Shown here: in pieces, positions 4,825 to 54,758 of the stretch | Position numbering within the stretch: the first letter of the stretch is position 1 | Layout of the letters: every line of letters starts with the position of its first letter | From: Polytrichum commune | Lineage: Eukaryota; Streptophyta; Polytrichopsida; Polytrichales; Polytrichaceae | DNA length: 64,000 nt | Direction: 5' to 3' | Assembly (NCBI GenBank): GCA_950295325.1 | Contig: OX485804.1 | Coordinates: 56,234,001 to 56,298,000, forward strand | Notes under the pieces: model-generated | Told to the model about the DNA's origin: nothing | Database searches by the model: none | Seen by the model: the letters and a program-made list of their open reading frames with translations, nothing else | Position numbers and translations under genes: made by a program

Positions 4825-4914
4825 AATGATACGAGGCACTTGGTGCACTTATCCCCATTCCATAAAGCCCTTGAAATGGTTACATATTATTAGTGTGGCT
4901 AAAGCTTGGCATAT

Positions 4915-5401
4915 TCGGTGCCCTAAAATATGTCCAAGTAGTACGACGTACTGTAAGGAGTGAAAGAGAGGCGACCGCACCAGTGGTTGGGGATGTGAAT
5001 TAGGACGTGGTTTGGGACCTAATGAAGAAGGACGCTGAGTCATCATCGCCACCGTCAATAGATAGGCACCTCGCCATCACGCGAGACTCCTCGGCTGCTC
5101 TGTTTTGTTGTCTTCTTCGTCTTCCTCCCTCGCACTCTTCTTCTGCACCAGTGGCAGACCGCATAGTCGGTGCCCTAAAATATGTCCAAGTAGTACGACG
5201 TACTGTAAGGAGTGAAAGAGAGGCGACCGCACCAGTGGTTGGGGATGTGAATTAGGACGTGGTTTGGGACCTAATGAAGAAGGACGCTGAGTCATCATCG
5301 CCACCGTCAATAGATAGGCACCTCGCCATCGCGCGAGACTCCTCGGCTGCTCTGTTTTGTTGTCTTCTTCGTCTTCCCCCCTCGCACTCTTCTTCTGCAC
5401 C
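4915..5401 (+). repeat. 252-bp tandem duplication
   Basis: Copy 1 is 4915-5166 and copy 2 starts at 5167 and matches for about 235 bp. The period is exactly 252 bp (84 codons). I saw only two substitutions between copies (in the CGCCATC-CGCGAGACTCC segment and in the following pyrimidine run), so the duplication is recent. The unit is rich in CT tracts and holds the ancestral GTGGTTTGGGACCTAAT motif shared with 3489-3660. Open frames cross it on both strands only because the period is a multiple of three. Confidence 0.8.
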
Positions 5402-8400
5402 ATCTCCTGCTTCTTCCGTTGACAGATAGACAGGCACAGAAATCGCCACCCTGCTCCCCTCTCACAATCCTAACAACTCGTGTTCCAGATACCAGATCTT
5501 ACTCTGCTTTGGGCGTCGGAATTAATGCGTGGTGATCCGGGGCTTGCTTGCTTGGTGGATTTTTCGTTTGGGTTGGAGGAGGATTTGTGTATTGGTTTTA
5601 TAGGAGACTGACTGCAGCTAGGCGCAGTATTGGGCCGACGGACGCAGGTTATGCTGAGGAGGAGCAGGAGGTTGAAAGAGTGAGGAGGGTGGATCTGCTC
5701 TGGATGGTTTGTACCCACAGGAAGAATTAAGTTGCGGGGATCATCGTCAGGGGTGGGTTGCGGATTCGTCGGGAGGAGTGGCGGGGGATTGACGTCCGTA
5801 TCACAGGTGCGTTTGGTGTTCAGTTATTCCTTCACTAGATTTTTGCGGCGCAGCGGTTTTCATTGCCTTCGTGGACGTTATGGATGTGATTTCTAAACCT
5901 CTATATCGGGTGATGGTTTTGTCTATGTGCTGGTTGCTTTCGGGGTGCATAAATGATTTCACCCTGGATTATATTGGAAGTTGGAGATGACCAATTCCAT
6001 AGCATACCAACCATTCATTCAAGACACAACAATATGGGGGTTTTGTGAACTCGTAGTACGCCACCATCTTCATCATGCTGGCGAGGCTGGGTAGTTCTAG
6101 AATCTTTAGCGCCCCTAGTATACTAGCCAAAGGCAGCTCGCCGTGGTTTCTAGTTCGCTATAGTAGTCGCTCTGGTATTTGTGAGGTCGTCTTTCTCAAT
6201 GTTTGTGTGTTTCCTCTCATCCTGCACAACTCGAGCTCCTGAACGCATCTTCAAAACTTATCACTAATTCCAGTACCAAACTCTAGACGAAATCCCCAAC
6301 CCTTTTGGGCATTGTGATTTTGTGCAAAGTGACTTTGCAGTCCGATGAATTTGATCGATTTCACCTAAACTACGTGAGCGATTGGGATTTCAGAGGTGGG
6401 TTAATCTCTAATTCTTCGCAACCCAAGTAACTTGTAGATGCATCTTTCAAAACTGGACACTATCTCTAATACCAGTTGTAGATCAATATCCTCACCCCTT
6501 TAGTGCTTTATGAATTTGATTAACTTCACCTAAACTGTGTAAGCGATCATAATTGAAGTTCTATATTCTTGGATTGACGTCTTGGATTTGAACTAGCCCT
6601 TCAACTGTAGGGTTCAAATTTGAAAACCCTTCAAAATGAACCTCATATGAGGGCTTCACTCTTGAACACTGCTAACAACGCTCCCCTCTCGTCTGCGCTT
6701 CGAACGACTCCCATGGTGCCCAATTTGGTCCACTGTCCACGATATGGTGACGCTTCCAGGTGGTGGCTGCCCTGTCAGGCCTTTTTTTGGTCAGGCTCCC
6801 TTGGTTCTCTCGTCGGAGAATGTGCTTTCTGATGATTTCTGAGAGTGAGTGAAGTGTCTTTGTCTTTGTCTCCGCCCTTGCTTGAAAAGGCTGCTCGAGA
6901 GCAACTTCTATTTGAGCGCTTGGCTCTTCTTTTGCTGTTGTTGCGGCAGGGTGTTTGACGTGCCCTGTTTGCATTGGATTTTAGTATACTTCTCATGCTT
7001 TGTTTGTAATGGAGTTCCTGCGAGGCAGTCAGATGGAATTCTAGCTTAGAGCAAGTACTTTGCCAGTGGCGAGCGTTGTTATGTATTGCGATGTTGGAGC
7101 TTCGACCAGTTCCTGCACCGCGGCGGTGAGGACGAGTACTTGCTGAAGCTATGTTTTTTTTGTAGGAATTAAGGATTTGGCGGAGTGCACATGTTGAATT
7201 GCAGTTTGTGCACATTTGTGTGAAGACGTCTTGGTTGCCTAAGACTTCTTGCACGCATTGCATAAAGAACTTGACAGTGTTCTCCGTAGCTAATGCACGA
7301 TGCTATGTTGCGCTAATGTAGTGTGTAGGTCTCATTTCCAGCCGTAGCAATGTGTCAACCCTAGTACTAAAAATTATGTACGAACATGTTGTGATGGATA
7401 AGTCCGGATCAAAGAGCCTAAGAAAGGGGAGTTCGCGAATCTTCAGTGGTGCTATACTTATTGCCTCATATTCAACTCTCCAAGGCCATTGAGTCCAATA
7501 TCGGTGACATTAAGGCGTTGCACTTTAAAGACTTTCGCTGTGCAAGTCAGAGAACCAAACAATTCTTCTACTCTAGATGGAGTCCAGACGGAGGAACATA
7601 AAGAAAGTTAGGATTTTTGTAGTAGTCCTAGAAATAGTAGGACATTCATAAGGCCTTTCGATTGTGTGGGTATCGAGTACGATCTTATTCACTGGAAATG
7701 TGTCTTGCAGGATGTTGAGCACGAGAACATGTAGGCATGTTGCTCAATGTTGAGCACACACATGATACACTAGATGCAACACCTAATTTAATAGTTGGAC
7801 ATTGGACAACATTTGAGAAAACGTGTTTGTTTTGTAATGCTTCAAGGTCTTGTCTATGCAACCAACATTGATGATTTTGTATGTTTTAGGTGCAACTTGA
7901 TTATTGGTGCAGTCTATGGTGATGAAGTTGGGACGTACTTGAAGGTTTCAAAACGCTTAGTTGTTGTACATGGTGATGTTGCATCATTCGTGTGAAACTG
8001 GCAATCTGTTGAAGTTTGATTCCTTCCATTGAGAGCATTAGAGTGGGCGGTTCAATTAAGGTGGTTAGATGAGGTTCATTATGGTGTAAGGGATGCGGAT
8101 TGGGTTTAATTAGATTCCAATTATTGCCAAGCCTCACACATTAGGTTCAGCTTACATGTTAGGCTGATAGAGCTTTATGTTGCACCAAGTTATAGTTCCG
8201 CTTGCGGCGATCGAGTACTAGATGTCCCTAGTTTCAATGGCCTCATCATTCGTGTAAGCTCTTGCTTCCTTTCACATTATTTTGGCATTCTGTACAAGGT
8301 TGAATTTCGTATGACAACATAGGTGGAAGTCGAGAAGGACTATATGTTTTGTGTCATTGTCTTTTACTCGATGGAGATCCTTTGGATTGTCGTTGTTTTT

Positions 8401-11990: not shown

Positions 11991-13658
11991 ATGGCCGTTG
12001 AACTTGGGCAATTCTTGTTGAAGCAAATTTCAATGCTCTGGCGGTTCATCATCACTTGCTTCATATATTTCTTGACACTTGTTCACAAAAAGAAACCGCA
12101 TGGATGTGAGCTTTCGGATTCTTTGCAATGCGTATGGAAAGAGGAAGAAATGATCAAAATGTCCGACGAGATGATCAAAATACAAACTATTGTCCGACAA
12201 GATGACGTGTTGAATAAGCGACAATGCACAAATCTTGTCGACAAGCTTCCTACAACCGTTCATGGTATTATTGAGATGATCACATCCATGAAGCAATCCT
12301 TCGAAGTAAGCATTGTGGTGATGGAGTTGCGTCGTATCATACAAAAAGGGGAAGCATTGGTGAACGAATGTGGGAGTGGAGATTGGTGTCGTGCAGCTCT
12401 TTTCCAATTAGACAACAAAGAGGCCTTTCGGGAACTCGTGTTTGATTTGAAGTGTTGTTGGGAGGCGGTGCATGAGATATACTCGACAAACCGTCCAAAT
12501 CCACAAAATTGCACAATGTGTAAGGATTTGAATGTGGCTACTTTAAAGGAAGTTGAAGGCGATGAACAAGACTTGCAAAAGAAACTTGAAGGTGTGCTTG
12601 AGGACTCCAAAGAGCACATATTAGCAAAGCAATTATTGAAGAGATTGAAATGTGACTTGCAACAAGTGAGAGGTGGAGAATTGGATGCTTTGGAAATACC
12701 TAAAGACTTTCCAAAACCTACGCTTGTGAAACAAATGGGTGCTGGTGCATCCGGATCAGTGTATGAATCGATATGGTTGGGATTACCAAGTGCAACAAAA
12801 ACGTTGGCGGTTCTAGAGGATTGTTCTAGTTTTCGCAAAGAAGTCGGGATCTTGGCAGGATTGAGCCACCCAAACCTCATCAAATACTTTTGTTGTGGAA
12901 TAGACGAAGAACATAATGAGTTACATTTGGTGATGGAGTTGATGGACATGAGTTTGACAAAAATGTTGGAGAAGCGCAATAAGACACTCTTACCATACGT
13001 TGTTGCAATTGATGTTATGCTTCAAATTGGAAGCGGCATGTGGTATCTTCATGACATGCATGTCGCCCATCTCGACTTAAAGCCAGACAATGTGCTTTTA
13101 AGCTTCATGACCATTGATGGAGCAAAGGATACAAGTCCTTACCCATGCAATGTCAAATTGATCGATTATGGCACTTCCAAATTGGAAGTTCAAAGCAAAC
13201 CGCAAACACGAAAGGTTGAATATATTGTTGGTACACCAAGGTATATGGCTCCTGAGCAAATGGTCAAAAACTTAGCTTGTATGGCATGCCCTTTCCAAGC
13301 GGATGTATGGTCTTTTGCTATGACATGTTCAGAGATTCTTTCACAGAAGGCACCATTTCATGACACAAATAAAGTGAAAGAAATTCTTCCAAAAGTAAAG
13401 AAGGGTGAAAGGCCAGAGCTACCTATCAATTGTGGGGAGCTTACCAAATTGATGGAGGAATGTTGGAGGGAAGATCCCTTACAAAGGCCAACATTCTCCG
13501 ATATTTGCAAGAGACTTATAGGCTTGAAGAAAATGTTCATGAAGGGAACATATTCGAGTGATACGGTTCCCCAATTTGGTGGAGTCAAGAACTTTTCTCA
13601 AAAGATGTCAACAACATCGAAAGGTTGCAAAGACGAAACAAATCATGGTAGTGAGAAG
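11991..13658 (+). CDS. kinase-NBS-LRR resistance gene, exon 1 (protein kinase)
   Basis: This exon encodes 556 residues and begins at ATGGCC (11991). Residues 1-40 hold a hydrophobic, possibly membrane-spanning segment (MLWRFIITCFIYFLTLV). Residues 45-240 are helical. Residues about 243-505 form a protein kinase: glycine loop GAGASGSV, an ATK lysine, catalytic loop HLDLKPDN, DYG in place of DFG, GTPRYMAPEQ, and a C-lobe ending in CWREDPLQRPTF. The HLD replaces HRD, so it is a non-RD kinase, as in many plant immune kinases. The exon ends GAGAAG|GTAAATG at 13658 in phase 0, and its frame continues into the NBS exon. A kinase fused ahead of NBS-LRR is the PNL class known from mosses. Predicted role: intracellular immune receptor, inferred from domains only. 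The downstream LRR is interrupted, so the full product is probably not made. Confidence 0.85.
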
Positions 13659-13815: not shown

Positions 13816-14868
13816 GTGTTTGATGGAACATTGTTGAATGATCCAACGGTGGTTAGTCTCGAGAACAACCTTGCAAGAGTGAAAGATCACCTCAAAGAAG
13901 TGAATACCTTGGGTATTGTCGGCATGGGTGGAATAGGGAAGACCACATTGGCAAAGGCCATATTTGATGATACGAAGTCCACATACGATGCGTCATGCTT
14001 TGTGGGGCAATTGAAAAGTAGGAGTTTGCTTGATATCCTACGTGAAATTTTATCAAAATTTGGCGTGCACATAGAAGTTAGGGATTTAGTGCATGCGCAC
14101 AAGTTGATGGAAGAATTGTTGGACGAAAAGAAGGTCCTTTTGATCTTGGACGATGTTAAGGATGAAGCTCAAGTGAATGACATTATACCAACGGTCATCT
14201 TAGATCGGAGCAAGGGGACCACACTTATTATAACAACGCGTAATTGGGGTGCAATTAGAAATCGTGTGGGAGCGAGTGGTACAAGATTTGAAGTGAGCAA
14301 GTTAGATGATGATGCGGCAAAAACTCTCTTCAACATTCATTGTTGTTGGGAAGCATCTCATTTATCACCACAATTTAATGATATACGCGACATAATTGTG
14401 GAAGCTTGTAAGGGCTTGCCTTTGAGTTTGAAAGTCATGGGGGCATACTTACGTGGAAAAGAAAAGTTACGAAGTTGGGAACGCGCATTGCAAAGGATGA
14501 AAAGGGGAAGAAATTTGGACGGGGAGGATGATGAGATATGGAATACCTTGAGAGTAAGCTTCGATGATGGTTTAACTCAAGGAGAAAAAAATATGTTTTT
14601 GGACATAGCTTGCTTCTTCGGTGGAGATGTGCATCTTAGTGGCATGTCAAAAGAAAGAGCCCTACGCATGTGGACCGATAACAACGTCCCTCCAATTTCC
14701 GCATTGGAGAATTTGGTCCATCGGGTATTGGTAACCATAGAAATTGATGGTGACGGTGAAGAAATTTTGCAAATGCACGACCACCTGCGTGCCATGGGAC
14801 AAATGATTGCTGAGAAAGAATATGCGGGTACTCGAATTTGGAACGAAAACGGACTAACAAGCTGCTCG
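13816..14868 (+). CDS. kinase-NBS-LRR resistance gene, exon 2 (NB-ARC domain)
   Basis: The exon follows a 157-bp intron (13659-13815, GT-AG) in phase 0 and encodes 351 residues. It carries the NB-ARC series in order: P-loop GMGGIGKTTLA, kinase-2 KVLLILDDV, RNBS-B-like TTLIITTRN, GLPLSLKVMG, the RNBS-D-like FLDIACFF, and an MHD motif in LQMHDHLRAMGQ. The FLDIACFF and MHDHLRAMG forms are closer to TIR-type NBS domains than to coiled-coil types, which fits the moss class. The domain should bind ATP/ADP and act as the receptor's switch. It ends AGCTGCTCG|GTATGTT at 14868, again in phase 0. All key motifs are present and no stop interrupts the exon. If the intron were not removed, translation would stop at 14878. 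Confidence 0.88.
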
Positions 14869-15544
14869 GTATGTTATTAACATTGGCTATACTGAGACAT
14901 TGTCTTACGTATTATAATTGCAAATGATTTCTTCAAAAAAATTGGGTTGATGGAAAAACTTCTATTGAGAATGACATTTGGGGTGGATATTTGGTAAACT
15001 TTTAGGATGTTATAGATGCTTAGCACAAACTCATGTCATGTACTAGTACTTAGAAATATTGCACAAATAGAATATGCTAATACTTTCATGTATTCTTAAA
15101 AACAGGATGTGGGAAAACTTGAAGGTTGTTTTTACTTTGGCAATGGCATAAGTCACAAGCTATGTAAGGTTCAACAAATCCAAGATGGAAGTTTGAGCTA
15201 TCTTCGCCTATTGAGATTTCAAAGCATAGACATGGAGATTTCAATTGTCATCAACAACATGATGTGCATATGTACACTTGCTACACGTTCTTTCAACTTG
15301 AAATGTTTTATGATAGACTTACAAGCAACATTTTTGGTTGAGAGGAATACGAGGATTTGGCATAAGAGGAGTTGGAGGCCTTGGGATAACATGAGTTTCA
15401 AAACTTGTGCAAATCTATTAACAAATGCAGATCTCTGGAAATCTTTTGTGAAATTACAAGTATTGCAATTGCGAGGATGTTCATTCTTGAATCAAATAGC
15501 CAAAGAAATGTTTTCCATCACCACTCTCATAGAGGTAGATCTCA

Positions 15545-18500
15545 ATGGTTCAAATTTGACAACAATACCGAAGGAATTGGGGAACTTGACTTCTTTGACA
15601 ACCCTTGATTTGGGGCATTGTACAAGCTTGACAATGATATCGGAGGGATTGGGGAACTTGACTTCCTTGACAACCCTTCATTTGAGAGGGTGCAAGAGCT
15701 TGACATTTATACCGGAGGGATTGGGGAACTTGAATTCTTTGAAAACCCTTGATTTGACGGAGTGTACGAGCTTGACAACGATACCGGAGGGATTGGGGAA
15801 CTTGAGTTCTTTGAGAATCCTTACTTTGACAAAGTGTACGAGGTTGACAACGATACCGGAGGGATTGGGGAACTTGAGTTCTTTGACAACCCTTGATTTG
15901 ACAGGGTGTGAGAGCTTGACAACGATACCAAATGGATTGGGGAACTTGACTTCTTTGACAACCCTTCATTTGACGGACTGTACGAGCTTGACAACGATAC
16001 CGGAGGGATTGGGCAACTTGACTTCTTTGACAACCCTTGATTTGACGGACTGTACGAGCTTGACAACAATACCGGAGGGATTGGGGAACTTGACTTCTTT
16101 GACAACCCTTCATTTGACGGACTGTACGAGCTTGGTAACATTACCTGAAGGATTAGGGAACTTGACTTCTTTGACAACCCTTGATTTGACGGACTGTACG
16201 AGCTTGATAACGATACCGGAGGGATTGAGGAACTTGAGTTCTTTGACATCCCTTCATTTGACAAAGTGTACAAGCTTGACAACGATACCTGAGGGATAGG
16301 GGAACTTGAGTTCTTTGGAAACCCTTGATTTGACAAGGTGTACGAGCTTGACAACGATACCGGAGGGGTTGGAGAACTTGAGTTCTTTGGAAACCCTTCA
16401 GTTCAGAAGGTGTACGAGCTTGATAACGATACCGGAGGGATTGGGGAACTTGAGTTCTTTGGAAACCCTTGATTTGAGGTACTGTGAGAGCTTGACAACG
16501 ATACCGGAAGCATTGGGGAACTTGAGTTCTTTGGAAACCCTTGATTTGAGAGGGTGCAAGAGCTTGACAACGATACCGGAAGGATTGGGGAACTTGACTT
16601 CTTTGACAACCCTTGATTTGACGGAGTGTACGAGCTTGACAACGATACCGGAGGGATTGTGGAACTTGAGTTCTTTGATATCCCTTCATTTGACTGAGTG
16701 TACGAGCTTGACAACGATACCGGAGGGATTGTGGAACTTGAGTTCTTTGATATCCCTTCATTTGACTAAGTGTACGAGCTTGACAACCATACCGGAGGGA
16801 TTGTGGAACTTGAGTTCTTTGATATCCCTTCATTTGACTGAGTGTACGAGCTTGACAACGATACCGGAGGGATTGGGGAACTTGAGTTCTCTGACAACCC
16901 TTGATTTGACAGGGTGTACGAGCTTGACAACGATACCGGAGGGGTTGGGGAACTTGAGTTCTTTGGAAACCCTTCAGTTAAGAAGGTGTACGAGCTTGAT
17001 AACGATACCGGAGGGGTTGGGGAACTTGAGTTCTTTGGAAACCCTTCAGTGCAGAAGGTGTACGAGCTTGATAACGATACCGGAGGGATTGGGGAACTTG
17101 AGTTCTTTGACAACCCTTGATTTGACAGAGTGTACGAGCTTGACAACGATACCGGAGGGATTGGGGAACTTGAGTTCTTTGACAACCCTTGATTTGACAG
17201 AGTGTACGAGTTTGACAACATTACCGGAGGGATTGGGGAACTTGAGTTCTTTGATAGCTCTCCATTTGACAGAATGTACGAGCTTGACAACGATACCGCA
17301 GGGGTTGGGGAAGTTGAGTGCTTTGGAAACCCTTCAATTCAGAAGTTGTACGAGCTTGATAACGATACCGGAGGGATTGGGGAACTTGAGTTCTTTGACA
17401 ATTCTTGATTTGAGACGGTGTGAGAGGTTGACAACGATACCGGAAGGATTGGGGAACTTGAGTTCTTTGAAAACCCTTGATTTGAAAGGGTGTGAGAGCT
17501 TGACAGCGATACCGGAAGGATTGAGGAACTTGAGTTCTTTGGAAACCGTTGATTTGAGAGGGTGTGAGAGATTGACAACGATACCGGAGGGATTGGGGAA
17601 CCTGAGTTCTTTGACATTCCTTGATTTGACTGAGTGTACGAGCTTGACAACGATACCGGAGGGATTGGGGAACTTGAGTTCTTTGGAAACCCTTCATTTG
17701 ACTGAGTGTACGAGCTTGACAACGATACCGGAGGGATTGGGGAACTTGAGTTCTTTGGAAACCCTTGATTTGACAGAGTGTACGAGCTTGACAACGATAC
17801 CGAAGGGATTGGGGAACTTGAGTTCTTTGGAAACCCTTGATTTGACAAAGTGTACGAGATTGACAACGATACCGGAGGGATTGGGGAACTTGAAATCTTT
17901 GACATACCTTCATTTGACAGAGTGTACGAGCTTGACAACGATACCGGAGGGATTGGGGAACTTGAGTTCTTTGGAAACCCTTGATTTGACAGGGTGTGAG
18001 AGGTTGACAATGATACCGGAAGGATTGGGGAACTTGAGTTCTTTGAAACAACTTGATTTGACAGAGTGTACGAGCTTGACAAGATTACCGGAAGGATTGG
18101 GGAACTTGAGTTCTTTGAAACAACTTGATTTGACAGAGTGTACGAGCTTGACAAGATTACCGGAAGGATTGGGGAACTTGAGTTCTTTGGAAAACCTTAA
18201 TTTGACAAGGTGTACGAGCTTGATAACGATACCGGAGGGGTTGGGGAACTTGAGTTCTTTGGAAACCCTACAGTTAAGAAGGTGTACGAGCTTGACAACA
18301 TTACCGGAGGGATTGGGGAACTTGAGTTCTTTGATAGCTCTCCATGTGAGAGATTGTACGAGCTTGACAAGGATACCGGAGGGGTTGGGAAACTTGAGTT
18401 CTTTGGAAACCCTTCAATTCAAAAGGTGTACGAGCTTGATAACGATACCGGAGGAATTGGGGAACTTGAGTTCTTTGACAATCCTTGATTTGAGACGGTG

Positions 18501-19518
18501 TAAGAGGTTGACAACGATATCGGAAGGATTGGGGAACTTGAGTTCTTTGAAAACCCTTGATTTGAGAGGGTGTACGAGCTTGACAACGATACCGGAGGGA
18601 TTGGAGAACTTGAGTTCTTTGACAACCCTTGATTTGAAAGAGTGTACGAGCTTGACAACATTACCGGAGGGATTGGGGAACTTGAGTTCTTTGACAACCC
18701 TTGATTTGACAGAGTGTACAAGCTTGACAACGATACCGGAGGGATTGGGAAACTTGAGTTCTTTGACAACCCTTGATTTGACAGAGTGTATGAGCTTGGT
18801 AACATTACCGGAAGGATTGGGGAACTTGAGTTCTTTGAGTACCCTTGATTTGAGAGGGTGTGAGAGCTTGACAACGATACCGGAAGGATTCAGGAACTTG
18901 AGTTCTTTGCAAACCCTTCATTTGAGAAGGTGTGAGAGTTTGACAACGATACCGGAGGGATTGGGGAACTTGACTTCCTTGACAACCCTTGATTTGACAG
19001 GGTGTACGAGCTTGACAACGATACTGGAGGGATTGGGGAACTTGAGTTCTTTGACAACCCTTGATTTGACAGAGTGTACGAGCTTGGTAACATTACCTGA
19101 AGGATTAGGAAACTTGAGTTCTTTGAAGTCCTTTGATTTGACAGAGTGTACGAGCTTGGTAACATTACCTGAAGGATTGGGGAACTTGAGTTCTTTGAAA
19201 TCCTTTGATTTGACAGAGTGTACGAGCTTGACAACATTACCGGAGGGATTGGGGAATTTGAGTTCTTTGACAACCCTTGATTTGAGAAAGTGTACGGGCT
19301 TGACAACGATACCGGAGGGATTGGGGAACTTGAGTTCATTGACAACCCTTGATTTGACAGAGTGTACGAGCTTGACAACATTACTGGAGGGATTGGGGAA
19401 CTTGAGTTCTTTGACAACCCTTGATTTGACAGGGTGTACGAGCTTGACAACGATACCGAAGGGATTGGGGGACTTGACTTCTTTGACAACGCTTGATTTG
19501 ACGGAGTGTACGATCTTT
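15545..19518 (+). repeat. 72-bp LRR-coding tandem array, block 1 (about 55 units)
   Basis: The segment AACTTGAGTTCTTTG recurs every 72 bp (for example 15799, 15871), with almost no indels across 4 kb. Units differ mainly at the solvent-exposed positions (TTLDLT, ETLDLR, KTLDLK, ISLHLT) and at the E/K/G/R before the Cys. Higher-order copying is visible: 17221-17500 and 18301-18580 share rare variants at a spacing of 1080 bp (15 units). Because 72 is divisible by three, all six frames stay open for long distances, which explains the large antisense open frames here. Confidence 0.92.
16297..16299 (+). other. in-frame nonsense codon in LRR array
   Basis: The unit reads GAG GGA TAG GGG where the consensus is GAG GGA TTG GGG (Glu-Gly-Leu-Gly). 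One T-to-A substitution creates the stop, and the reading frame on both sides is the same. Confidence 0.9.
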
Positions 19519-19583
19519 CACTAGTAGAAAACATGGTTAAAAAAAACCACAGTCGTTTTTCTATTGCGGTTCTTTTGACCACT
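19519..19583 (+). repeat. CACTA left terminal inverted repeat
   Basis: 65 bp beginning CACTAGTAG and ending TTTTGACCACT. It differs from the right repeat at one position (CCACAG here, CCGCAG on the right). It supplies the His and stop codons that end the upstream LRR frame. An inner imperfect palindrome (AACCRCAG ... TTGCGGTT) lies in its second half. Confidence 0.92.
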
Positions 19584-22109
19584 GTTTTGTGGGGTGTTGC
19601 GCCAAACGTGAAATCATGCTACACTTGCAATTTCCATTGAGTGCCGAATGAAAATACGAGTGTACATGTATATGTTCCACGCGTGTTTGGAGTACATGCC
19701 ATTCCTTCATTGAATGCATCGGTGTTCGCAGTGCTGCGCGCTCCAATACTAATTTCCTCTCTTGTAATTATGAACAAGATGTGAATATCGAAGGAGAACA
19801 AGCAACCGGAATGCAATTACTGACTTGACTTTTTCGCTTGTGTTGTGGTTGGTGTACTGATGGTTTTAGCTGTAAATCGTGCAGTCATGTACCATAAAAT
19901 GGCCCAGTCCTATGCAATCTTCTCTACCATGCGTGCAAATCAACGCAGTGTGTACCAATCTTACTGTACTGTCCGCCATTCACAAGACCTTAAGGCGGAT
20001 GAGTTTGAGAAACTTCCAGTGAACGTTCAAGAACCTAGTGAAAAATGGCTGACTTTTTGGCTGAATATATGCAAACTGGCTCAAAGTAGTAAAGACGGAC
20101 CGAAAGTTCCCAACAATTAGCTGGTTGGACTTGGAGACACTTATTGTCATCTTTGATGGAGCCAGTATTCTCCACGGGAGAGTGGGAGGCGGGAACTGCA
20201 CTGGAGCTCAACTCACGATGCTAAATGGTGGGCAACATTAAGGAGACACCTCCAAAAATGGAGGCCCCGACGAATAAGCCATCAACGCACAGGTTCAGGG
20301 TGCCATAGGTCTGAGGTCACGACTAAGCAGAGATTCAAACATGAATTTATTCCACATCGGATGCACATGGTTAAAGAACAATAGTGAGAAGAACACCTTT
20401 GAGTGGCTAGTCTTTCAGTAGAATGAAGGGCAACGGAACCTCAGCAAATTGAGTTTGGATGTGTACAAAGTTGGTTTTACTGCCTATGTGTCGTGTGAAA
20501 TGTGATTCTGACACCGACACATCACATGGAACCTGCTCAAAATGAAGTTGCAGACTAAAAACGAGAAACCCATGCATACGGCAATGGATCAATGCACTTA
20601 ATGCTGTACATAATATTGTATCAATCCAATGTTCACAGACATTTCATGCATGCCCATGGATTGCTTCATACTCGGAGCGTACAAGATGTATGCAACACTC
20701 CGATAACAACAATTCTTAGCTCATTAGAATGCAGGGCATTATGCCAGTAACTACACCATTGTAAAGTGAAAAAAATGCAGCATATACGTTGCTTTCCACG
20801 AAAACCAACACATATAATGGAGGACGAGCAAGGAACTCTCGCCACATAAATTGGGTATCATTCAAAATTGCCAATTCAACGCCAGAATGTTTTGAAATCA
20901 TATATGTCCTCCTTGCCATCAAGTCTACAATTTTGTGGTCATTTGTGAGTATCAGAGCCACATATCACTCCACATAAGACCAAGGCAAACTTCTTGCTTC
21001 ATCCTACAAAAACATGTCCATATGTAAACTGTGGCATTGACATCATCTAATTATGCAGTTCATGGAACTCGGAAATTCCTACATATGTCCATACTAAAAT
21101 ACATATCTCCTAGTTACAGCGTCGTCCGATGGTCTCCTTCCACGGTGACCAAATGTAGGCTCATTCCAATCGCTCCCACCAACTTTGTCAATCAAGATTC
21201 CACAATTTCCATTATGTGTTCCACCGGGTTGCTGTGCTCCATATGCTGGGGCTCTTCTCCAGAGGGCAGTCCAATTTCGCTGTGGGCAGTCATCAATGTC
21301 TGCATCCCGCACGAATTCCAGGTAACCGACTCATAAACAGATTGCGACACCGTCCCCGTACTGCAAGAAACCACCTGGACGTTAAAATTCCCGGACAAAT
21401 TCGGAGTCATGCCTCTAAATATGTCGCTGCGAGTAGGTGTGAAATACAACCTGTCCTTTCAACACATTCATATCAGCTTGCATGTGTGTCCAAGGAATGC
21501 CGAGCAGCTTACTGTGCGGCACACCTCAATTACAATGCGTTGATAAACAATAGTCTGCACCTGCACTACATACTATTCTTCAAAGTTCTGGGTGTTCTCA
21601 CAAATACCGTGCATGGCTGGCGTGAGGCTAAACCTTGCAAGTAACAACATTTCATATCCAAACAAGTGTCCTCATGAACTCATTCAAGGGATCATCCAAC
21701 ATAAAATATGTGATGTAATAAAAGTGACATTATCAATAAACAAAATCCATGAATGGTGGGGAGGGGGTGGGGGGAACTCGTCGCCTGTAAACATATCACG
21801 TGTTGTTGACATTTATATGCTGAATTTGGCCGCACAGCTTTCCTGCACCTTAATTAATAAATCTCCACCTCCTACTACACATAGGGGGCACAGCTGCACA
21901 ACCGAAATTATTATGCATATTGGGGTTGAGGGTCAACAAATACAGGGCTGAATTGGATCAGTTCCACTACAATTTGTCGGCGACAAATCCGTCAACTCCT
22001 TGTGCTTCGCGTGAGGGTCTGTTACTGCAAATAACACTACTTACAAGACTCAAACATTGCAATTGACATTGGGTGGGACCTTCCTCTTACCATTCACTTT
22101 GTTTGGCAT
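19584..22109. other. left subterminal region of the CACTA element
   Basis: No family could be recognised. On the minus strand, open stretches at about 21449-21192, 20961-20716 and 20592-20407 look protein-like in composition and might be exons of one unknown gene or of captured host sequence, but I could not join them with convincing splice sites. Nothing else is supported. Confidence 0.35.
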
Positions 22110-31586: not shown

Positions 31587-34500
31587 ATGAGCATGGAGGG
31601 TGAACCAGTAGCTCGGCTTCCACTAGACCATCCACTCCGCATCAAGGCAAGGGATTTGAAGTTGCAGCAGCGAGACGAGGATCGTGCTGACAGGAATGCA
31701 TTGTCTAGGTACAGGTGCCCTTGCAATCTTTGTGGGGGGCGGAGACGACCCTACAAGACCAGCACAGTTGCAAGGCACCTCAGGCATCGGGGCCGACATG
31801 GTGCCTTGAGAGGTAGTACACAGGTAATTACGCACATCGACCATAGTTGAGGGAGTGGTCATGAAATACTTAAACTTTATTATTGACGTGACCATTTTGT
31901 TGTCGATGTGTGTTTTAATATTGGTGTATGTTGACATTTAGGGTGACGACTATGACTCATCTGACGAGGAGTGGGATCAGCACATTGGCTCACACGCTCG
32001 AGCATTTCTCGGCCTGAATGAGCCAATAGCTGAGATAGCTCTCGACGACGGCGTTGGAATTGGGATGATGGTGAGGAATGCTTTCACGTTTGCGGACAAC
32101 ATACACATGCGTGCGGCTGTGGCCGCCTGCCCCGAAGCTGCCGTTGCAGAGGGGTCCCCAATGCAGCACCGGCAGGATGGACTCGGAGATGCGGATATTG
32201 TGAGCAACATTAATGTGCGGTCAGAAGGTGAATACATTGCTGAGTTTCAAACAAGGTCCCTGCAGTCCAATTGCAGTAACGATCACAGCCAATGCCCACG
32301 TCAACATGGAACAAGCAATGTCGATGGAGGCTCCAGCGGAGAGGAGGGTTCGGCCAATTTAGGGGCCGAAGATGGGGACGCGGAGGAGAACTCTAGTGAT
32401 TCCTCCAGGAGGGAGCCAGGGGATGCATCGGACGACGAACAGAGTGATGAGGAGGACCTGGAAGAGCTGCTGGGTCAAATTCCCGAGGACCGAATGGGTT
32501 CGAATCCCGAATTTGATATTGCCGCAACACTGCCCTTGTATGAGGGCAGCACCTTGTCCATGCTATGCGCAACCTTGCTCATAGTGAATTGTTGTAAGAC
32601 ACACGGTGTGTCCAACACATTTACGAATGAGCTACTTATGCTCCTGAGTATGAGTATTCTGCCCGCGGGAAATTGTCTTCCGAAAACGGAGTATGAGGCG
32701 AGCAAAATTCTGCGGAGACTTGGGTTGGCATATAACATGATACATGCTTGTCCTAATGGGTGTTGTTTATTTAATGGTGATTTAGAGGATGTTGAGAAAT
32801 GTCCAGTGTGTGAGCATGATAGGTACAGAATGTGCGGGAGGTCAAGGGTACCGACTTTGATATTGCGTCATTTTCCCCTTATCCCTCAGCTGCAAAGGAT
32901 GTTTAGCTCTAAGAAGTTGTCAAAGTTAAATGTATGGCACTATTTTAACAAGTCGGTTGATGGAAAGATGAGACACACTGCTGATTCTCCACAGTGGAAT
33001 TTTGTGAACACAGAACTGGAACCTGAAGCGGGCAATGATATGTTCGGTCGAGATCCGCGGGATATCCATCTAGGACTTGCCCTGGACGGCATGAACCCAT
33101 ATTCTGAGAAACGCTCAACCCAAAGCTTAACTCCAGTCATTGTGTTCAACTACAACTTGCCTCCGTGGTTGGTAACCAAAAAATACTTTGTAATGTTATG
33201 TCTTCTGATTCCAACTAAATTAAGTCTAACAGGTTCAAATATTGATGTCTTCGTACAACCTCTGGTAGATGAGTTGCAACAACTGTGGAGTCGTAGGGGG
33301 GTTCTTACATGGGATGCTAGAGCTAATTTGGGAGTGTCCCACTTCAACCTGAGGGCCGTTTTGATGTGGACATTGCACGATTTTCCGGCCTATGGATTGA
33401 TTTCTGGACTAACTACAAAAGGGTTCAAAGGTTGTCCTGTATGCGGACCCCACACAGTATCTCGCAGGTCCAAAATACTGAGGAAAAATGTGTACTGCAA
33501 CTGCCATAGAAGATATCTGCAAGGAGACCATTATTTTCGGGGCGCAGCTGCAGCATTTGACGGTGAAGCAAACCATGAAACGGCGGCCGAACCACTAACA
33601 GGAAACCAAACAATTCGGTATGGCCGTCAATCAGAGGCCTACATTGACGGAGGGGGCACAGAGAAGGACGACGAATTTCCTGCCAAGGAGCACGGTGTAA
33701 AGAGAGTATCAGCGCTATACCAGTTACCATACTGGAGGGTTAGTATTGCGAAACCTGTTGCTATTTATTCTCCTAATTTTCATTGAAAGGAATGACATGG
33801 TTGAATATCTCTGGTTGTCAATTCATGTCTACCTTACATGGCCAGGAAGATGATATGATCACCGGGATGTTGTGAATATTCCTGGTCCTTGCTGGACACA
33901 CTGCAATGTTTAACTTCAGAGTCTGTAATGAATTAAGAATAAATGCAATGCAGACAATACCCTGACTCTATCAAAATGGACAGTTTGTTGTTGCCAGCCT
34001 GCTCATTCATCTACAACTGCAAATGAAATATATGTAATTTGACATATGTATATATGAATATCAGACAATGAAGCATTGCCTACTTGCTTGCAGGTTGTTG
34101 TGGTCCCAAATGTGCATATATGATGTTGGACACTAGCATGTTGTGGCTTGTTGTTGAAAACACCTAGTGACTTACGAGACCATTATGCACATTGCAACAT
34201 ATGCTTACTATTGCAGCTTGTAGCCGCAGAAGCTTCCAATCAGGCACCTCTTGGATGTAATGCACATTGAGCGCAACATATGCGACAGCTTAGTGAAGTT
34301 ACTATTTGGAGCGAAAGACACCGCAGCCTCGCGTCGAGATATGGAGGAGGAGAGAATACGGCAACATTTGTGGGTTCGTCGAGGGCCGGTGCCTGGTGGA
34401 AATTACATCAAGCCTCCTGCACCATACGTGCTGACCAAAGAGGAACAAAAAAATTTTCTAGAGCAATTGGCTGGAATATCACTACCGACGGGCTATTGTG

Positions 34501-36328
34501 GGCCAATGCAGAAGCACATACTCCAGAATAGAATTGGTAACATGAAGTCCCATGACTTCCACATCTTTTTCCAATTTATACTCCCTGTTTGTTTGAGGCA
34601 TCTTATGGACAGGGGGCCCCGATCGGCCATTATTCGGCTTGCAAGGTTGTTCACAATGATCTGCAAAAAGGTCATAGCTGTGACAGAGTTAGAGCGTTTA
34701 CAACATTATGCAGCCGAAACAATGTGCTTAATGGAGGTATGGTTTCCTCCTTCTTTTTTTGACATTATGGTCCATTTGCCAATCCATCTTGTTAGGCAGG
34801 TGAAGTTGTGCGGCCCAATTGCCAATGCTTGGTGCTATCCGGTAGAGAGACACTTGAATGTTTTAAAAAAATATATCCGGAACCGGGCACACCCCGAGGG
34901 TGCCATTGCGAATGCTTACTTGTATGATGAGGCACTCGGATTTTGCACCGAGTACTTGAAGCTCTATCCCTTCACACGACGAAGAATTTGGGATGACGAG
35001 GAGGAGTTGGGTGATTGTGGAGAACTGCTAGAAGGAAAAGCCCTAAACCGAGAACTAACCAACGAGGAGCGGAGAGCAATCCATTCTTGGATTATTAGGA
35101 ATTCAGAGGCAACTAGGGAGCCTTGGAGGTAAACCATATGCATTATGTCTTGATGAATAATCAAATTCACGCCTAGTCTGTATGTAGCCATGGCCTTTGC
35201 GTTCAGGTGCTGTCACACCCACTAATGTATAGTTATTTTGTATCTGCCAGACAATACCAGGCCCTTAAAGAGCAACTGGAGGCAGGAAGGGCAACATTCA
35301 GGAGGGATGCTGCATTAAGAGGGCTTAGCCGAAGACAACAACGTGCTTATCCTAATGACCTCTTGAACGACTTGCCTGACTTTGTGGACTGGTTGCCATC
35401 ATACACCACGCAGTTGGTCAACACACATGGTTCACGCAATGTTGACATCGATTTGCTCCGACTATCGAGTCTCCCTTCTCGAGATGCTGAGAGTTATCAG
35501 CAAATGTGGGCCTATGGGAACCACTACAGGGTGTACAACGAGGGAGATGAACGAGGGTTCGTGACACAAGATTATGGAATCGCCAGCATATTTGGAGCAG
35601 AGGAGGGACAAAGCGCAGGTGTGAGTATGGTAGGAGTCTTGAAAGAGATTATTGTTGTTCGATACTCAGCGCAAAGGAGGGTAGTGTTTCGTGGTTCATG
35701 GATTCGCAATGCTCCTGGGGCACAGTCATCCACGAAGGTAGACCAGTATGGCTTCACGATTGTCAGGTTCAATGATCGGATTGCCCGTGACATAGAACCG
35801 TATGTGTTACCGGCCACAATCCGCCAGGTATCACAATGTAGTGAGTCTGATTGGGGTTCATGTGGGAATGTGGCTCCTCCCTGTTGAAGTGTGCCCCAAT
35901 GTATGGTGCATCGGAGGATGTGCATATATTGTGTGAATCCATACAATACCTTTGTTGACTATTTGTGCACATGGCGCAAGGTGTTCTTCATTGAGGATTG
36001 GAGGCATCCTGCGTGGCGCGTGGTGCTCCAGAAGGAGCCGCGATCGCGGAGAGTGGTGGACAACGACGATGAACAGACATTGGGGATATCGGGGGATCTG
36101 ATTGGCCTCCAACTACCGTTGGACATGAACGCAGCGCATTTCAGGCCAAACCCTGTGAATGCAGGGGAGGCAGTTCCAGCCGCGGAGATTGCCAGGCTGA
36201 ATGCACTAGTGGCTGGTGATCCACATCAAATTCACCAACATGCAGGGGCCAATGGACGAAGGGGAAGGGGAAGGGGAAGGGGAAGGGGAAGGGGAGGCAA
36301 CCGGAGGAGGTTGCCAAGAAGGAATTAG
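31587..36328 (+). CDS. TNP2 transposase of the CACTA element, five exons, apparently intact
   Basis: Exons 31587-31823, 31942-33738, 34230-35128, 35251-35827 and 35981-36328 join with GT-AG introns into one frame of about 1285 residues without stops. Exon 1 (ATGAGCATGG) has a Cys/His cluster (RYRCPCNLCGG, HLRHRGRHG) like the transposase-associated N-terminus. Exon 2 begins with an acidic linker, then the TNP2 core: ACPNGCCLFNGDLEDVEKCP, FPLIPQLQRMF, HLGLALDGMNPY, YNLPPWLVTKKYF, DVFVQPLVDELQQLW, MWTLHDFPAYG. The exon 2/3 join gives PYWR|KLPIRHLLDVMHIERN, and the exon 4/5 join gives TIRQ|VFFIEDWRHPAW, both standard TNP2 strings, which confirms the splicing. Probable acidic catalytic residues are in LDGMNP, LHDFPAY and HIERN. 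The C-terminus is a Gly-Arg tail. It should cut and join the element's ends in the nucleus. Confidence 0.9.
36254..36296 (+). repeat. AGGGGA microsatellite coding the Gly-Arg tail of TNP2
   Basis: Repeats of GGAAGG encode alternating Gly and Arg (GRGRGRGRGRG) just before the TNP2 stop at 36326. The number of units could vary without changing the frame because the unit is 6 bp. Confidence 0.8.
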
Positions 36329-38634: not shown

Positions 38635-40920
38635 GTAGGCTTTCAGAAGACCTTGCAATCATCTTTTCATGTGGCTCAGTTTCAGGCTTGAATGTCTTTG
38701 AAAGTCAAGAGGGTGCATCTCAATCACCATTCCAAACTTGACTTACTGTGGATCGAAATAGGCTACTTTGCAGAAGGCCTCGGATCCGAGGTCTGTTGTC
38801 CTTGGGGGTTGCTAAACTTGATTTGAGGTCAAGTTTATGGTTTCAGGTTGAATGTAGGCATGCCATGTTTGGGTTTCATGTCTAGCTACATTCAACCTGA
38901 CTCCATAAATTTGAAATCGAATCATTGTATTCTTCATATACAGAGACACGCATGTGTTCATCTAACCGGCCTTTCCAGATTGGGGTGCTATGAACTCCTC
39001 CTCTCCAGGTAAAATTTCGACTCGTTATTCGTGCCAGTTGTTTTTACATGATCCGTGCTTGCATTGTGGGCGTTTTTTGTTCGTTTGAATTGTCTTCAAA
39101 TAGATATTAATATGTGATGTAATTTTTAACTTGTTAAGGAGATGACATGGCAATTATCCTATTCATGCAGTATTTGCATCAATTTATAGTGAGTCTAGTG
39201 TAAGGTTCCTTCTGATACTTGGACTTGGAGCTGTATACTTTGCAGAGTAAATGACAAGCTCCACTAAACTCTTGCCTTGTATCTACTTGTTATGACAGTC
39301 ACTAAATGTGGAGTTGTTTAGTGTACAAAGCATAAATCCTGAAAGTGTAATTATTTGTGCAGATTGGCAAGTCTGGAACTCTATGGACTGTGGCAGCGGC
39401 TTTGAAGCGCTACAGCATCCTGGACCCGGAACGCCAATCCTGTTCTCTGCTCAATGTTCGAAATGTGGCCATAGATTCAATAGCAAATTTGTACGTGTTG
39501 GAACATGTCATCCACAGTAGTTCATTTTTCAGAGAAGAAAGGTTCAAACATATTGGGACCATTGAATGTAGTTGCATTGAGACTTTGAGAGATGTGGGAC
39601 GCAGTATTAACTGAGCATGGCGGATAATGTTACTGAGCTTCATTGGAGTTGCCAAACAATGAAACTCTAGTATGTTGCCCAAAATATTCATATCGCTGAA
39701 ATGTATGATGTGAAGTTTGTGTGCAGACTATGACGCTTGATAGACATGTATGTGTGTAATTTTGTGCACGACTTTCTTTCATGGGAATGTAGTTATCATT
39801 GCAACCATTGTACAGACCATTTTTTTCAATTCCAGTGTCCCTTGCTCATTGACCTGTCCCATTTGTAATCTATGATTTGAATACAAGAGCAAGTAGCATT
39901 CGAGTGTAGGTTGAATGCATGTCGCAATCGTTTTTGGGTTCAGTCCGCTTGAGGCACAACGCATTGCGGGTGTCAACGGAAATCGAGTGTCACTCGATTT
40001 CCAGTGCCAGTGGAAATCGAGTGACTCGACACTCGTTTTCAGAAGACAGTGGAAATCGAGTGACACTCGTTTTCAGAAGACAGTGCAAGTTGGCTGCAAC
40101 TGTATTTTGACTACAAGTTGCATCCAAATGCCACATGTTTCCAACAGGCACTGGACAGCCATCGTCATTGCAGCTAGGGCTGAACCCAATACGTAGGAGC
40201 ATTTCGGTGTGAGTGGCAGTCAATATAGGACAAACCCGTCCCACAATTAAAGGGAGTGTGTGCACTGTTGGTCGATTGAAACACGCGTAGGAATTGAAGA
40301 ACATCGATCTAAGAGCGCATTGGGCACGATTGGATGAGATCCGCGGGTTTGCAAGTCGGACCGGTTATGTGTTAACAAACTTGCCATTTCCTTCATAAAA
40401 ATAGGGTATATTTCATAAATTCCTACTCCATGGTAGGCCCCTTTTCTGCAGTCTTCAACTTCGAATGGTCGTATTTCCACTTCATCCGGACCATTTGTAA
40501 CCAACTGCCGGTTCTCCCCAGGTGTGCATTAATTGTTGCAGAGGCAATCGAAGACATACCTGTGTATTGACATAATACGGACTTGGCAAGCAATTGCATA
40601 TCTCCTGAAAGTCATATATATAGCTCATGGAATGACATGGGACTGTGATTTCAAATTAACTCCGAATCAATGTTTACTCTTTGCAAAAGGCACCAAACAC
40701 TTGCTGATACGTACGTACCTAAACTAACCCAGACATATATATATATTTTACGTACGTAAAGGATGTGTGAAGACATTAAGTTTCCAAAAATTAATTGCAC
40801 GCAAATGCATATACACAGAATATAAAGAGAAATGATCTATGAATGTGTAAACAGTTAAAACCTTGAATGACAGTGACCCAATATTGGTAATTATCGCCCC
40901 CCCAAAAAAACTATTAAAAT
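38635..40920. other. right subterminal region of the CACTA element
   Basis: No gene recognised. The stretch at 39357-39614 is open and begins after a plausible acceptor (TGTGCAG), but it matches no family I know; it may be further captured sequence. A cluster of palindromic GAAATCGAGTGACACTCG units lies at 39975-40085. Confidence 0.4.
39975..40085. repeat. palindromic ATCGAGTG/CACTCGAT repeats
   Basis: At least three units of GGAAATCGAGTG with adjoining GACACTCG and TTTTCAGAAGACAGTG occur close together, partly as inverted copies. They lie about 0.9 kb from the right end. They could be subterminal binding sites for the TnpA-like protein, but the same motif was not found near the left end. 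Confidence 0.5.
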
Positions 40921-40985
40921 AGTGGTCAAAAGAACCGCAATAGAAAAACGACTGCGGTTTTTTTTAACCATGTTTTCTACTAGTG
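40921..40985 (-). repeat. CACTA right terminal inverted repeat
   Basis: Read on the minus strand it begins CACTAGTAGAAAACATGG and matches the left repeat at 64 of 65 positions. It ends abruptly against DNA that is not LRR (AACCTTGCAAGTC onwards). Confidence 0.92.
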
Positions 40986-41132
40986 AACCTTGCAAGTCAA
41001 CAAGTTATCATTATTAACCTAGATTTCACATCACAATGCATATTCACATTGTACAATCTTAAAATACCGTATACATGAGAGGCTCAAATTGGGTAGCAAA
41101 AATGTTTAGTGATTGGCAGCTAAGTGACATAT
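40986..41132. other. non-LRR DNA between the CACTA end and the gap
   Basis: These 147 bp are AT-rich and have no similarity to the LRR unit, although an insertion into the array should be followed by LRR. They also do not repeat the 3 bp left of the element. Confidence 0.6.
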
Positions 41133-41332
41133 NNNNNNNNNNNNNNNNNNNNNNNNNNNNNNNNNNNNNNNNNNNNNNNNNNNNNNNNNNNNNNNNNNNN
41201 NNNNNNNNNNNNNNNNNNNNNNNNNNNNNNNNNNNNNNNNNNNNNNNNNNNNNNNNNNNNNNNNNNNNNNNNNNNNNNNNNNNNNNNNNNNNNNNNNNNN
41301 NNNNNNNNNNNNNNNNNNNNNNNNNNNNNNNN
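41133..41332. other. assembly gap of 200 N
   Basis: Exactly 200 N, the kind of round number used for gaps of unknown size. The distance and even the order across it cannot be trusted. Confidence 0.98.
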
Positions 41333-41334
41333 TG

Positions 41335-43760
41335 ACAAAGTGTACGAGCTTGGTAACGTTACCAGAAGGATTGGGGAACTTGAGTTCTTTGAAATTACTT
41401 GATTTGACAGAGTGTACGAGCTTGACACAATTACCGGAGGGATTGGGGAACTTGAGTTCTTTGACAACCCTTGATTTGACAAAGTGTACGAGCTTGGTAA
41501 CGGTACCAGAAGGATTGGGGAACTTGAGTTCTTTGAAATTACTTGATTTGACAAAGTGTACGAGCTTGACACAATTACCGGAGGGATTGGGGAACTTGAG
41601 TTCTTTGACAACCCTTGATTTGACAAAGTGTACGAGGTTGACAACGATACCGGAGGGATTGGGGAACCTGAGTTCTTTGACATCCCTTCATTTGACTGAG
41701 TGTACGAGCTTGACAACGATACCGGAGGGATTGGGGAACTTGAGTTCTTTGACAACCCTTGATTTGACAAAGTGTACGAGCTTGGTAACGGTACCAGAAG
41801 GATTGGGGAACTTGAGTTCTTTGAAATTACTTGATTTGACAAAGTGTACGAGCTTGACACAATTACCGGAGGGATTGGGGAACTTGAGTTCTTTGACAAC
41901 CCTTGATTTGACAAAGTGTACGAGGTTGACAACGATACCGGAGGGATTGGGGAACCTGAGTTCTTTGACATCCCTTCATTTGACAGAGTGTACGAGCTTG
42001 ACAACATTACTGGAGGGATTGGGGAACTTGAGTTCTTTGACAACCCTTGATTTGACAGGGTGTACGAGCTTGACAACGATACCGGAGGGATTGGGGGACT
42101 TGACTTCTTTGACAACCCTTGATTTGACAGAGTGTACGATCTTTACAACATTACCGGAGGGATTGGGGAATTTGAGTTCTTTAACAACGCTTGATTTGAC
42201 AGAGTGTACGAGCTTGACAACGATACCGGAGGGATTGGGGAACTTGAGTTCTTTGACAACCCTTGATTTGACAGGGTGTACGAGCTTGACAACGATACCG
42301 GAGGGATTGGGGAACTTGAGTTCTTTGGAAATCCTTGATTTGACAAAGTGTACGAGATTGACAACGATACCGGAGGGATTGGGGAACTTGAAATCTTTGA
42401 CATACCTTCATTTGAGAGAGTGTACGAGCTTGACAACGATACCGGAGGGATTGGGGAACTTGAGTTCTTTGGAAACCCTTGATTTGACAGGGTGTGAGAG
42501 GTTGACAACGATACCGGAAGGATTGGGGAATTTGAGTTCTTTGGAAACCCTTGATTTGACAGAGTGTACAAGGTTGACAACGATACCGGAGGGATTGGGG
42601 AACTTGAGTTCTTTGGAAACCCTTGATTTGACAAAGTGTACGAGATTGACAACGATACCGGAGGGATTGGGGAACTTGAAATCTTTGACATACCTTCATT
42701 TGAGAGAGTGTACGAGCTTGACAACGATACCGGAGGGATTGGGGAACTTGAGTTCTTTGGAAACCCTTGATTTGACAGGGTGTGAGAGGTTGACAACGAT
42801 ACCGGAAGGATTGGGGAATTTGAGTTCTTTGGAAACCCTTGATTTGACAGAGTGTACGAGGTTGACAACGATACCGGAGGGATTGAGGAACTTGATTTCT
42901 TTGACAGCCCTCGATTTGACTAAGTGTACAAGCTTGACAACGATACCGGAGGGATTGGGGAACTTGAGTTCTTTGGAAACCCTTGATTTGAGAGGGTGTG
43001 AGACCTTGATAATGATACAGGAAGGATTGGGGAATTTGAGTTCTTTGGAAACCCTTGATTTGACAGAGTGTACGAGGTTGACAACGATACCGGAGGGATT
43101 GGGGAACTTGACTTCTTTGACAACCCTTGATTTGACAAAGTGTACAAGCTTGACAACGATACCGGAGGGATTGGGGAACTTGAGTTCTTTGAAAATCCTT
43201 GATTTGACACAGTGTACGAGCTTGACAACGATACCGGAGGGATTGGGGAACTTAAGTTCTTTGGAAACCCTTGATTTGACAAAGTGTACGAGCTTGACAA
43301 CGATACCGGAGGGATTGGGGAATTTGAGTTCTTTGACATCCCTTGATTTGACAGAGTGTACGAGCTTGACAACGATACCGGAGGGATTGGGGAACTTGAG
43401 TTCTTTGACAACCCTTGATTTGAGAGGGTGTGAGGGCTTGACAACGATACCGGAGGGATTGGGGAACTTGAGTTCTTTGGAAACCCTTGATTTGACAAAG
43501 TGTACGAGCTTGACAACGATACCGGAGGGATTGGGGAACCTGAGTTCTTTGAGAGCCCATGATTTGATAGAGTGTACGAGCTTGACAACGATACCAAAGG
43601 GATTGGGGAACTTGAGTTTTCTTTGAGAACCCTTGATTTGACAGAGTGTATGAGCTTGACAAAGATACCGGAGGAATTGGGGAACTTGAATTCTTTGGCA
43701 ACCCTTGATTTGACAAAGTGTACAAGCTTGACAATGATACCGAAGGAATTGGGTATGAGC
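41335..43760 (+). repeat. 72-bp LRR-coding tandem array, block 2 (about 34 units)
   Basis: Same 72-bp unit as block 1. A higher-order unit of four LRRs (288 bp; KCTRL, KSLTYLHLREC, GCERL, ECTRL) is repeated back to back: TACGAGATTG recurs at 42351 and 42639. A related four-unit set occurs once in block 1 near 17850-18050. Confidence 0.9.
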
Positions 43761-54745: not shown

Positions 54746-54758
54746 CAGGGGAACACGT

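Follow-up and report, generated by a model that had tools for sequence, protein, structure and literature searches.

Gene and repeat array at the locus

The window analyzed here is a stretch of 64,000 nucleotides from Polytrichum commune (C2:56,234,001-56,298,000 of a 407.8-Mb genome), and its main subject is a receptor gene whose leucine-rich repeats (LRRs) form a long array of 72-bp units. Kinase, NB-ARC, and LRR exons lie in tandem on the + strand. Exon 1 (11991-13658, +) encodes a protein kinase domain (Pfam Pkinase, E 2.3e-41); its start at ATG 11991 is a guess, within a frame that is open from 11949. Exon 2 (13816-14868, +) encodes the NB-ARC switch and a winged helix (Pfam NB-ARC, E 1.1e-35; WHD_ROQ1, E 1.3e-6). 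Exon 3 begins with the N-terminal part of the LRR region, which contains two degenerate LRRs (15106-15555, +, placed from the splice acceptor and the translation), and continues into the array, hereafter array 1.

Splice sites were read by eye as GT/AG positions that are conserved when the window is aligned with nine paralogues. The exon 1 donor AAG/GTAAAT (phase 0), the exon 2 acceptor AG/GTG with its donor GTA (phase 0), and the exon 3 acceptor AAACAG/GATGTGGG are each kept in 10 of 10 aligned rows, and the start of the LRR exon at 15106, proposed in a first-pass annotation of this DNA, is placed by the last of these sites. Both introns, as predicted from the sequence, are in phase 0 and lie at the boundaries between the protein kinase (PK) and the nucleotide-binding site (NBS) and between the NBS and the LRRs. 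With an N-terminal kinase, a central NB-ARC domain, C-terminal LRRs, and two phase-0 introns, the window gene is by membership a copy of the PNL (protein kinase-NBS-LRR) class. The PNL class of Physcomitrella shares this domain order, and its introns at the two boundaries are likewise in phase 0, according to the sections of the source considered here (PMC3352924). The protein is presumably an intracellular immune receptor, its array binding pathogen or non-self molecules. In part of another published account, the kinase domain of a P. patens nucleotide-binding leucine-rich repeat receptor (NLR) triggers cell death in Nicotiana benthamiana to a modest and variable extent (PMC11218826).

Array 1 (15556-19515, +) reads unit by unit as 55 consecutive in-phase LRRs of 24 residues, with the consensus LTTIPEGLGNLSSLTTLDLTECTS. 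Tandem Repeats Finder (TRF) reports 55.0 copies of 72 bp at 15556-19517 with 87% matches and 0% indels, which bears out the earlier count of about 55 copies almost free of indels, and chance is excluded as the origin of this periodicity. The description of the units as nearly uniform holds at the level of DNA, where mean pairwise identity is 85.5%, and less so for protein, where it is 74.8%. Protein identity to the consensus is 0.839 in array 1 and 0.857 in a second array of the window, array 2; high internal conservation in fungal receptors is defined by repeat identity above 85% over at least 100 amino acids, a published measure that may differ from the one used here.

An in-frame TAG stop codon in unit 11 (16297-16299, +, from the frame reading) splits array 1 into 10 units upstream and 44 downstream, and the Pfam models LRR_14, LRR_4, and LRR_8 score above cut-off on both sides of it. 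The single-exon array of the first-pass annotation thus stands as 55 in-phase units and fails as an exon open throughout. Its 3' end is not a natural one either: array 1 is cut at 19518 by a 21.5-kb DNA transposon of the CACTA (En/Spm) type (19519-40985). The inverted ends of this element (19517-19588 and 40916-40987; 72 nt, 97% complementary) have the form CACTA...TAGTG, and inside it lie a transposase open reading frame (ORF; Transposase_21/tnp2, 31942-33786, +, Pfam E 2.9e-61) and a DUF4218 ORF (34224-35132, +, Pfam E 5.6e-38). Its CACTA membership rests on two defining features, the ends and the tnp2 transposase. CACTA elements are expected to be flanked by a 3-bp target-site duplication. 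No matching 3-bp duplication is present at the flanks here, which read TTT on the left and AAC on the right, suggesting that the element has recombined or that a flank or junction has been rearranged. The nonsense codon and the transposon have probably destroyed the integrity of the window copy and left it inactive; production of a shortened receptor with 10 of the array repeats is still conceivable.

Array 2 (41333-43753, +, about 33 units) directly follows 200 N (41133-41332), most likely a scaffold gap and less likely a withheld stretch. TRF counts 33.6 copies there, in agreement with the 34 or so LRRs first suggested for a second block, and 31 units lie in one frame, to 43626. Because array 2 opens mid-unit directly at the N run, its membership in the same gene as array 1 is not shown; the sole NB-ARC match within the window, among the 115 of 463 candidates scored in the family search described below, is at 13816-14877. 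Array 2 contains a 4-unit tandem duplication (99.3%). It shares with array 1 a 114-bp exact stretch, near-identical 4-unit blocks, and a unit order that is reached by 0 of 100 shuffles. A single array split by the transposon was considered and rejected, as no LRR unit lies in the 147 bases beyond the right end of the element and the target duplication does not match. Also rejected was a 3' flank of array 2 in common with the related loci L002, L003, L005, and L006, as the matches amount to no more than 29 bp (L005) and 35 bp (L010).

Census of the receptor family

A six-frame search with the NB-ARC exon, in which 115 of 463 candidates were scored, gives family counts that are lower bounds. Besides the window there are at least 31 matches at 80% NB-ARC identity or above (27 covering nearly the whole exon and 4 partial), and the next identity tier among the 115 scored candidates starts at 60%. 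A search with PF13516 returned only five places and was dropped as a census tool. The loci fetched for comparison comprise 29 of the 31 (L001-L029), one at 59% (L030), and nine at 53-60% (L031-L039).

Array size varies widely across these loci. The longest open frame holds 92 units in L001, 80 in L030, 72 in L021, 55 in L023, 49 in L028, 44 in the window downstream of the stop, 42 in L016, 41 in L027, and 40 in L003. Among loci with units it ranges from 3 to 92, with L009 (11) and L017 (3) near the lower end, and L029 has no units in its 7.5 kb. In L031-L039, represented by 6-kb pieces, the longest uninterrupted in-phase series of similar units counts 11-52, depending on the locus. Some 40 arrays that differ in content were found, many of which have long open frames, and long arrays occur at many loci and on several chromosomes. 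After units containing stops were dropped, 1,042 units from 31 arrays include 859 distinct units and 449 distinct combinations of the five exposed residues.

The window gene forms a clade with L002-L006 (support 100/99), and the arrays of L002-L006 all run into frameshifts, stops, or other breaks. The ratio of nonsynonymous to synonymous change (pN/pS) in the NB-ARC exon is 0.77 in this clade; the five other clades give 0.37-0.60, and comparisons between clades 0.46. The high value is as expected of decay and fits it without proving it. Separate NB-ARC pN/pS values for L007, L028, and L030 are not used, because their ungapped alignments seem to be out of register, and that for L029 is doubtful.

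Two further observations concern individual members. L030 (G000:C1:69546200-69555800), the 59% NB-ARC relative, carries several overlapping block duplications at lags of 26, 6, and 43 units. L008 (3597-5705) and L009 (2776-4884) each possess a 703-aa open C-terminal part 3' of the LRR array, in which no Pfam domain is found at E 0.01 and which is a possible integrated domain.

Turnover of the arrays

For the turnover tests, each locus is represented by its longest in-phase block, called its array; in several loci this block covers only part of the units (for example, 28 of 60 in L004, 28 of 57 in L015, and 32 of 51 in L025). Exact multi-unit duplications occur in three of these arrays. In L001, 24 whole units are duplicated in register at a lag of 25, with an exact tandem of 1,831 bp; in L030, 21 units are duplicated at a lag of 26, with a longest exact run of 1,206 bp; and in L002, 6 units are duplicated at a lag of 7, with 525 bp exact. 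When the unit order of L001, L030, and L002 is shuffled 200 times, the longest runs are at most 2 or 3 units.

Comparisons between sister loci set conserved flanks beside divergent arrays. L008 and L009 are 96.6% identical in the NB-ARC exon, 95.4% in the linker, and 99.1% over the 1,500 bp after the array, and their arrays, of 23 versus 11 units, align barely above background. In L019/L025 (NB-ARC 96.7%, linker 97.1%, 138 bp after the array 95.7%) and L002/L006 (NB-ARC 95.3%, linker 94.8%, 641 bp after the array 95.0%), array order is at chance level, being reached by 62 of 300 and 139 of 300 shuffles, respectively; L025, L002, and L006 are broken copies. L010/L011 and L019/L020, at 99.1% NB-ARC identity, differ in array length and likewise have their order at chance (16 of 100 and 50 of 100).

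Exchange looks mainly local, because exact sharing between loci is short (median 54 bp and maximum 114 bp over 465 array pairs). In 27 of 30 arrays, identity within the array exceeds identity between arrays. Unequal exchange predicts that end units should be less alike than the rest, and similarity to other units is 0.827 for first units, 0.771 for last units, some of which are degenerate, and 0.850 for middle units in 26 arrays. The exact blocks of 1,831, 1,206, and 525 bp, the spread from 3 to 92 units, and the sister arrays with little or no shared order give good support to the proposal of unequal exchange for the family.

Selection on exposed and framework positions

Selection was assessed by comparing each unit with the most similar non-identical unit of the same array, at most 15% different, and expressing changes per codon; the resulting pN/pS values come from a counting method rather than a codon model. 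Twelve arrays were chosen as unbroken (L001, L008, L009, L010, L014, L019, L020, L021, L023, L027, L028, and L030); in L030, 80 of 86 units lie in the open frame, and L020 has 10 further units in a separate block. The strand of an LRR follows the motif xxLxLxx, from which five exposed positions were fixed beforehand.

The 422 pairs from the 12 arrays give a pN/pS of 1.80 for the five exposed strand positions (1.46-2.33 when arrays are bootstrapped, with 0 of 2000 replicates at or below 1), 0.31 (0.25-0.35) for nine framework positions, and 1.05 elsewhere. In 310 pairs from the remaining fetched loci, many of which are broken, pN/pS is 1.83 at exposed and 0.49 at framework positions. In array 1 itself, the values are 1.93 (1.09-4.46) and 0.53 (0.25-1.31) in 43 pairs. 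The suggestion that variation is concentrated at exposed positions is therefore upheld for the family and, more weakly, for array 1. Ranked by pN, the five exposed positions stand 724th among 42,504 possible five-position sets; the single position with the highest pN is 22, which lies just beyond the strand.

Synonymous change is similar across the classes (pS 0.049 at exposed, 0.058 at framework, and 0.057 at other positions), giving no sign of mutation targeted by class; hypermutation directed at exposed codons was considered and is unsupported on the contrast of exposed with framework positions. It is reasonable to suppose that the array may be a device for making recognition surfaces.

AlphaFold2 modeling of the 44-unit open part of array 1 from a single sequence predicts a regular LRR solenoid, with a mean pLDDT of 84.4 and a pTM of 0.54. 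The top Foldseek matches in the PDB for this model are the ectodomains of the plant receptors GASSHO1 (E 5.3e-34), FLS2, and RGFR1, an LRR chain from a sperm-axoneme map, and SHOC2. Among the 50 matches listed, TM-scores normalized by query length range from 0.15 to 0.32 and do not fix the overall curvature.

Interpretation and alternatives

Array 1 is, with good probability, the sensor exon of a probably broken kinase-NB-ARC-LRR copy, within a family whose arrays are re-written by exchange and then selected. Under this interpretation, the switch domain would be conserved while the LRR array lengthens, shortens, and is re-written, mainly within each locus. Unequal exchange would duplicate blocks of units in tandem and in register or remove them, with unequal crossing-over as the presumed molecular event, and the frame would be kept because exchange proceeds in whole 72-bp steps. 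Selection would then keep the LRR framework and favor change at the exposed strand positions.

Several observations weigh against this interpretation. L008 and L009 retain some residual shared order, reached by only 1 of 100 and 3 of 300 shuffles, and shared order is at or above 95% of shuffles in 7 of 21 array pairs (L008/L009, L014/L015, WIN1/L003, WIN1/L005, WIN1/WIN2, L004/L006, and L021/L027, where WIN1 and WIN2 are arrays 1 and 2), although not in the other 14. L010/L011 and L019/L020 show no match in the 3' flank, so that in these pairs the entire 3' part has possibly been replaced. At positions 19 and 20, pS is near 0.10, about twice the mean, and pN/pS is only about 1.0 and 1.3, which makes a locally higher mutation rate possible at single positions. 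The pN/pS values are, moreover, counts on non-independent nearest-neighbor pairs, which recombination can distort. The window's own array 1 contains no recent duplication block: it has no identical pair of units, its longest run above 97% is 2 units, its longest exact repeat is 104 bp, and no lag exceeds the maximum of 200 unit-order shuffles. The elevated pS at single positions and the residual shared order slightly weaken two steps of the explanation. As for the recent tandem expansion of array 1 that had been proposed, it finds no support in these units, and the array is interrupted by the stop and the transposon.

The window gene might instead be a living, truncated receptor that ends at the TAG after 10 units, the downstream units being untranslated remains. 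Its kinase and NB-ARC exons are open, relatives with few units occur (L017 and L009), and downstream of the stop the counts of nonsynonymous and synonymous changes at framework positions show no significant worsening relative to unbroken arrays (Fisher p 0.12). This is unlikely, however: the arrays of its clade mates are all broken, and the NB-ARC pN/pS of the clade is the highest of six, as in decay.

Two other explanations are both very improbable. Broken arrays might serve as a reservoir of repeats, donating units to living arrays by gene conversion. The exact stretch and near-identical blocks common to arrays 1 and 2 are in keeping with such exchange, and a donor role has been proposed for pseudogenes of the Podospora NWD family, in the portion of that study considered here (PMC1805685), but exact matches between arrays stay within the short range given above, versus up to 1,831 bp within arrays. 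Alternatively, purifying selection on an ancient LRR framework might account for the uniformity with no exchange at all. Units that agree with the consensus at 12 or more of 24 residues are present in nine fetched NB-ARC relatives of 53-60% identity, framework pN/pS is low at 0.31, and for old parts of array 1 purifying selection alone may be enough. However, it does not account for the exact multi-unit blocks of L001, L030, and L002, nor for the excess of within-array over between-array identity. Least credible of all is an assembly artefact, a false expansion or collapse of the repeat: the N run lies directly at array 2, as if the assembler had failed in the array, and L001 has its long exact tandem, but the lack of identical units in array 1 means that its count does not come from repeated insertion of one stretch, and assembly error is an unlikely source of long arrays when such arrays, differing in content, are present at many loci and on several chromosomes.

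Re-writing by exchange followed by selection bears on the open question of how new receptor specificities arise in plants, which lack adaptive immunity. Dozens of arrays built from the same module, some with conserved flanks, exist in one genome, so that the rate and mechanism of unit turnover and the positions under selection are measurable. The chief use of the window locus is to illustrate, as a broken member, the way in which arrays die. A bolder and improbable extension is that the LRR domain has become a constant-variable-constant system, in which modules would be re-dealt within a locus before its flanks have diverged by a few per cent; a fixed switch and a fixed C-terminal part (as in L008/L009) would then enclose interchangeable 24-residue modules in a single exon, building solenoids of up to 92 repeats. 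On that reading, and provided that the host is a haploid-dominant moss, the array might even be re-dealt in mitosis, giving the shoots of one clone different receptors.

Other features of the window

Several smaller repeats lie elsewhere in the window. A 252-bp direct tandem duplication, 98% identical, occupies 4909-5402, and two G-rich minisatellites based on GGGAACG lie at 54243-54754 and 59374-60222. A short run of TAGGGTT, the plant telomere unit, occurs inside the chromosome at 57544-57581 and adjoins an 84-bp tandem array at 57582-57947.

Comparison with known systems

LRR copy number changes by recombination in flax L/M, tomato Cf, and lamprey VLR genes, all of which have far fewer LRRs than the family described here; VLR assembly, in addition, is somatic. 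At the level of titles and the starts of abstracts, no report was found of NLRs from mosses or other plants with giant or uniform LRR arrays. Such arrays are not described for the Physcomitrella PNL class in the sections considered, and the phrase 'number of LRR' has no occurrence there (PMC3352924).

Brown algal LRR-ROCO genes resemble the moss family in having 72-bp LRR modules with concave-face positions under positive selection, as given in part of the published account (PMC11378527). They carry 4-49 LRRs and, in the same part of that account, encode each LRR in an exon of its own, with shuffling and alternative splicing of these exons (PMC11378527), whereas all units of the moss family lie in one exon of a kinase-NB-ARC receptor.

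By analogy, the closest parallel to the family's apparent way of working is found in fungal NLRs with high internal conservation. Like the moss family, Podospora HNWD/NWD and the ANK and TPR receptors have near-identical tandem repeats whose number varies, together with homogenization and diversifying selection at the interaction surface, to judge from the parts of these studies considered (PMC1805685, PMC4986451, PMC12222747). WD repeat numbers in the Podospora family run from 2 to 15 in those parts, whereas the variation described here, 3-92 units in the longest open frame, is between paralogues of one genome. Podospora units are also exchanged between loci in the same material, in contrast to the exact between-locus sharing of at most 114 bp in the moss family. 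The repeats differ as well: those of the fungal receptors are WD40, ANK, or TPR, with no LRR motifs found in the part of the survey at hand (PMC4986451), and those of the moss family are LRRs. In a plant-type NLR built with LRRs, the moss family parallels the WD40, ANK, and TPR repeats of fungal NLRs.

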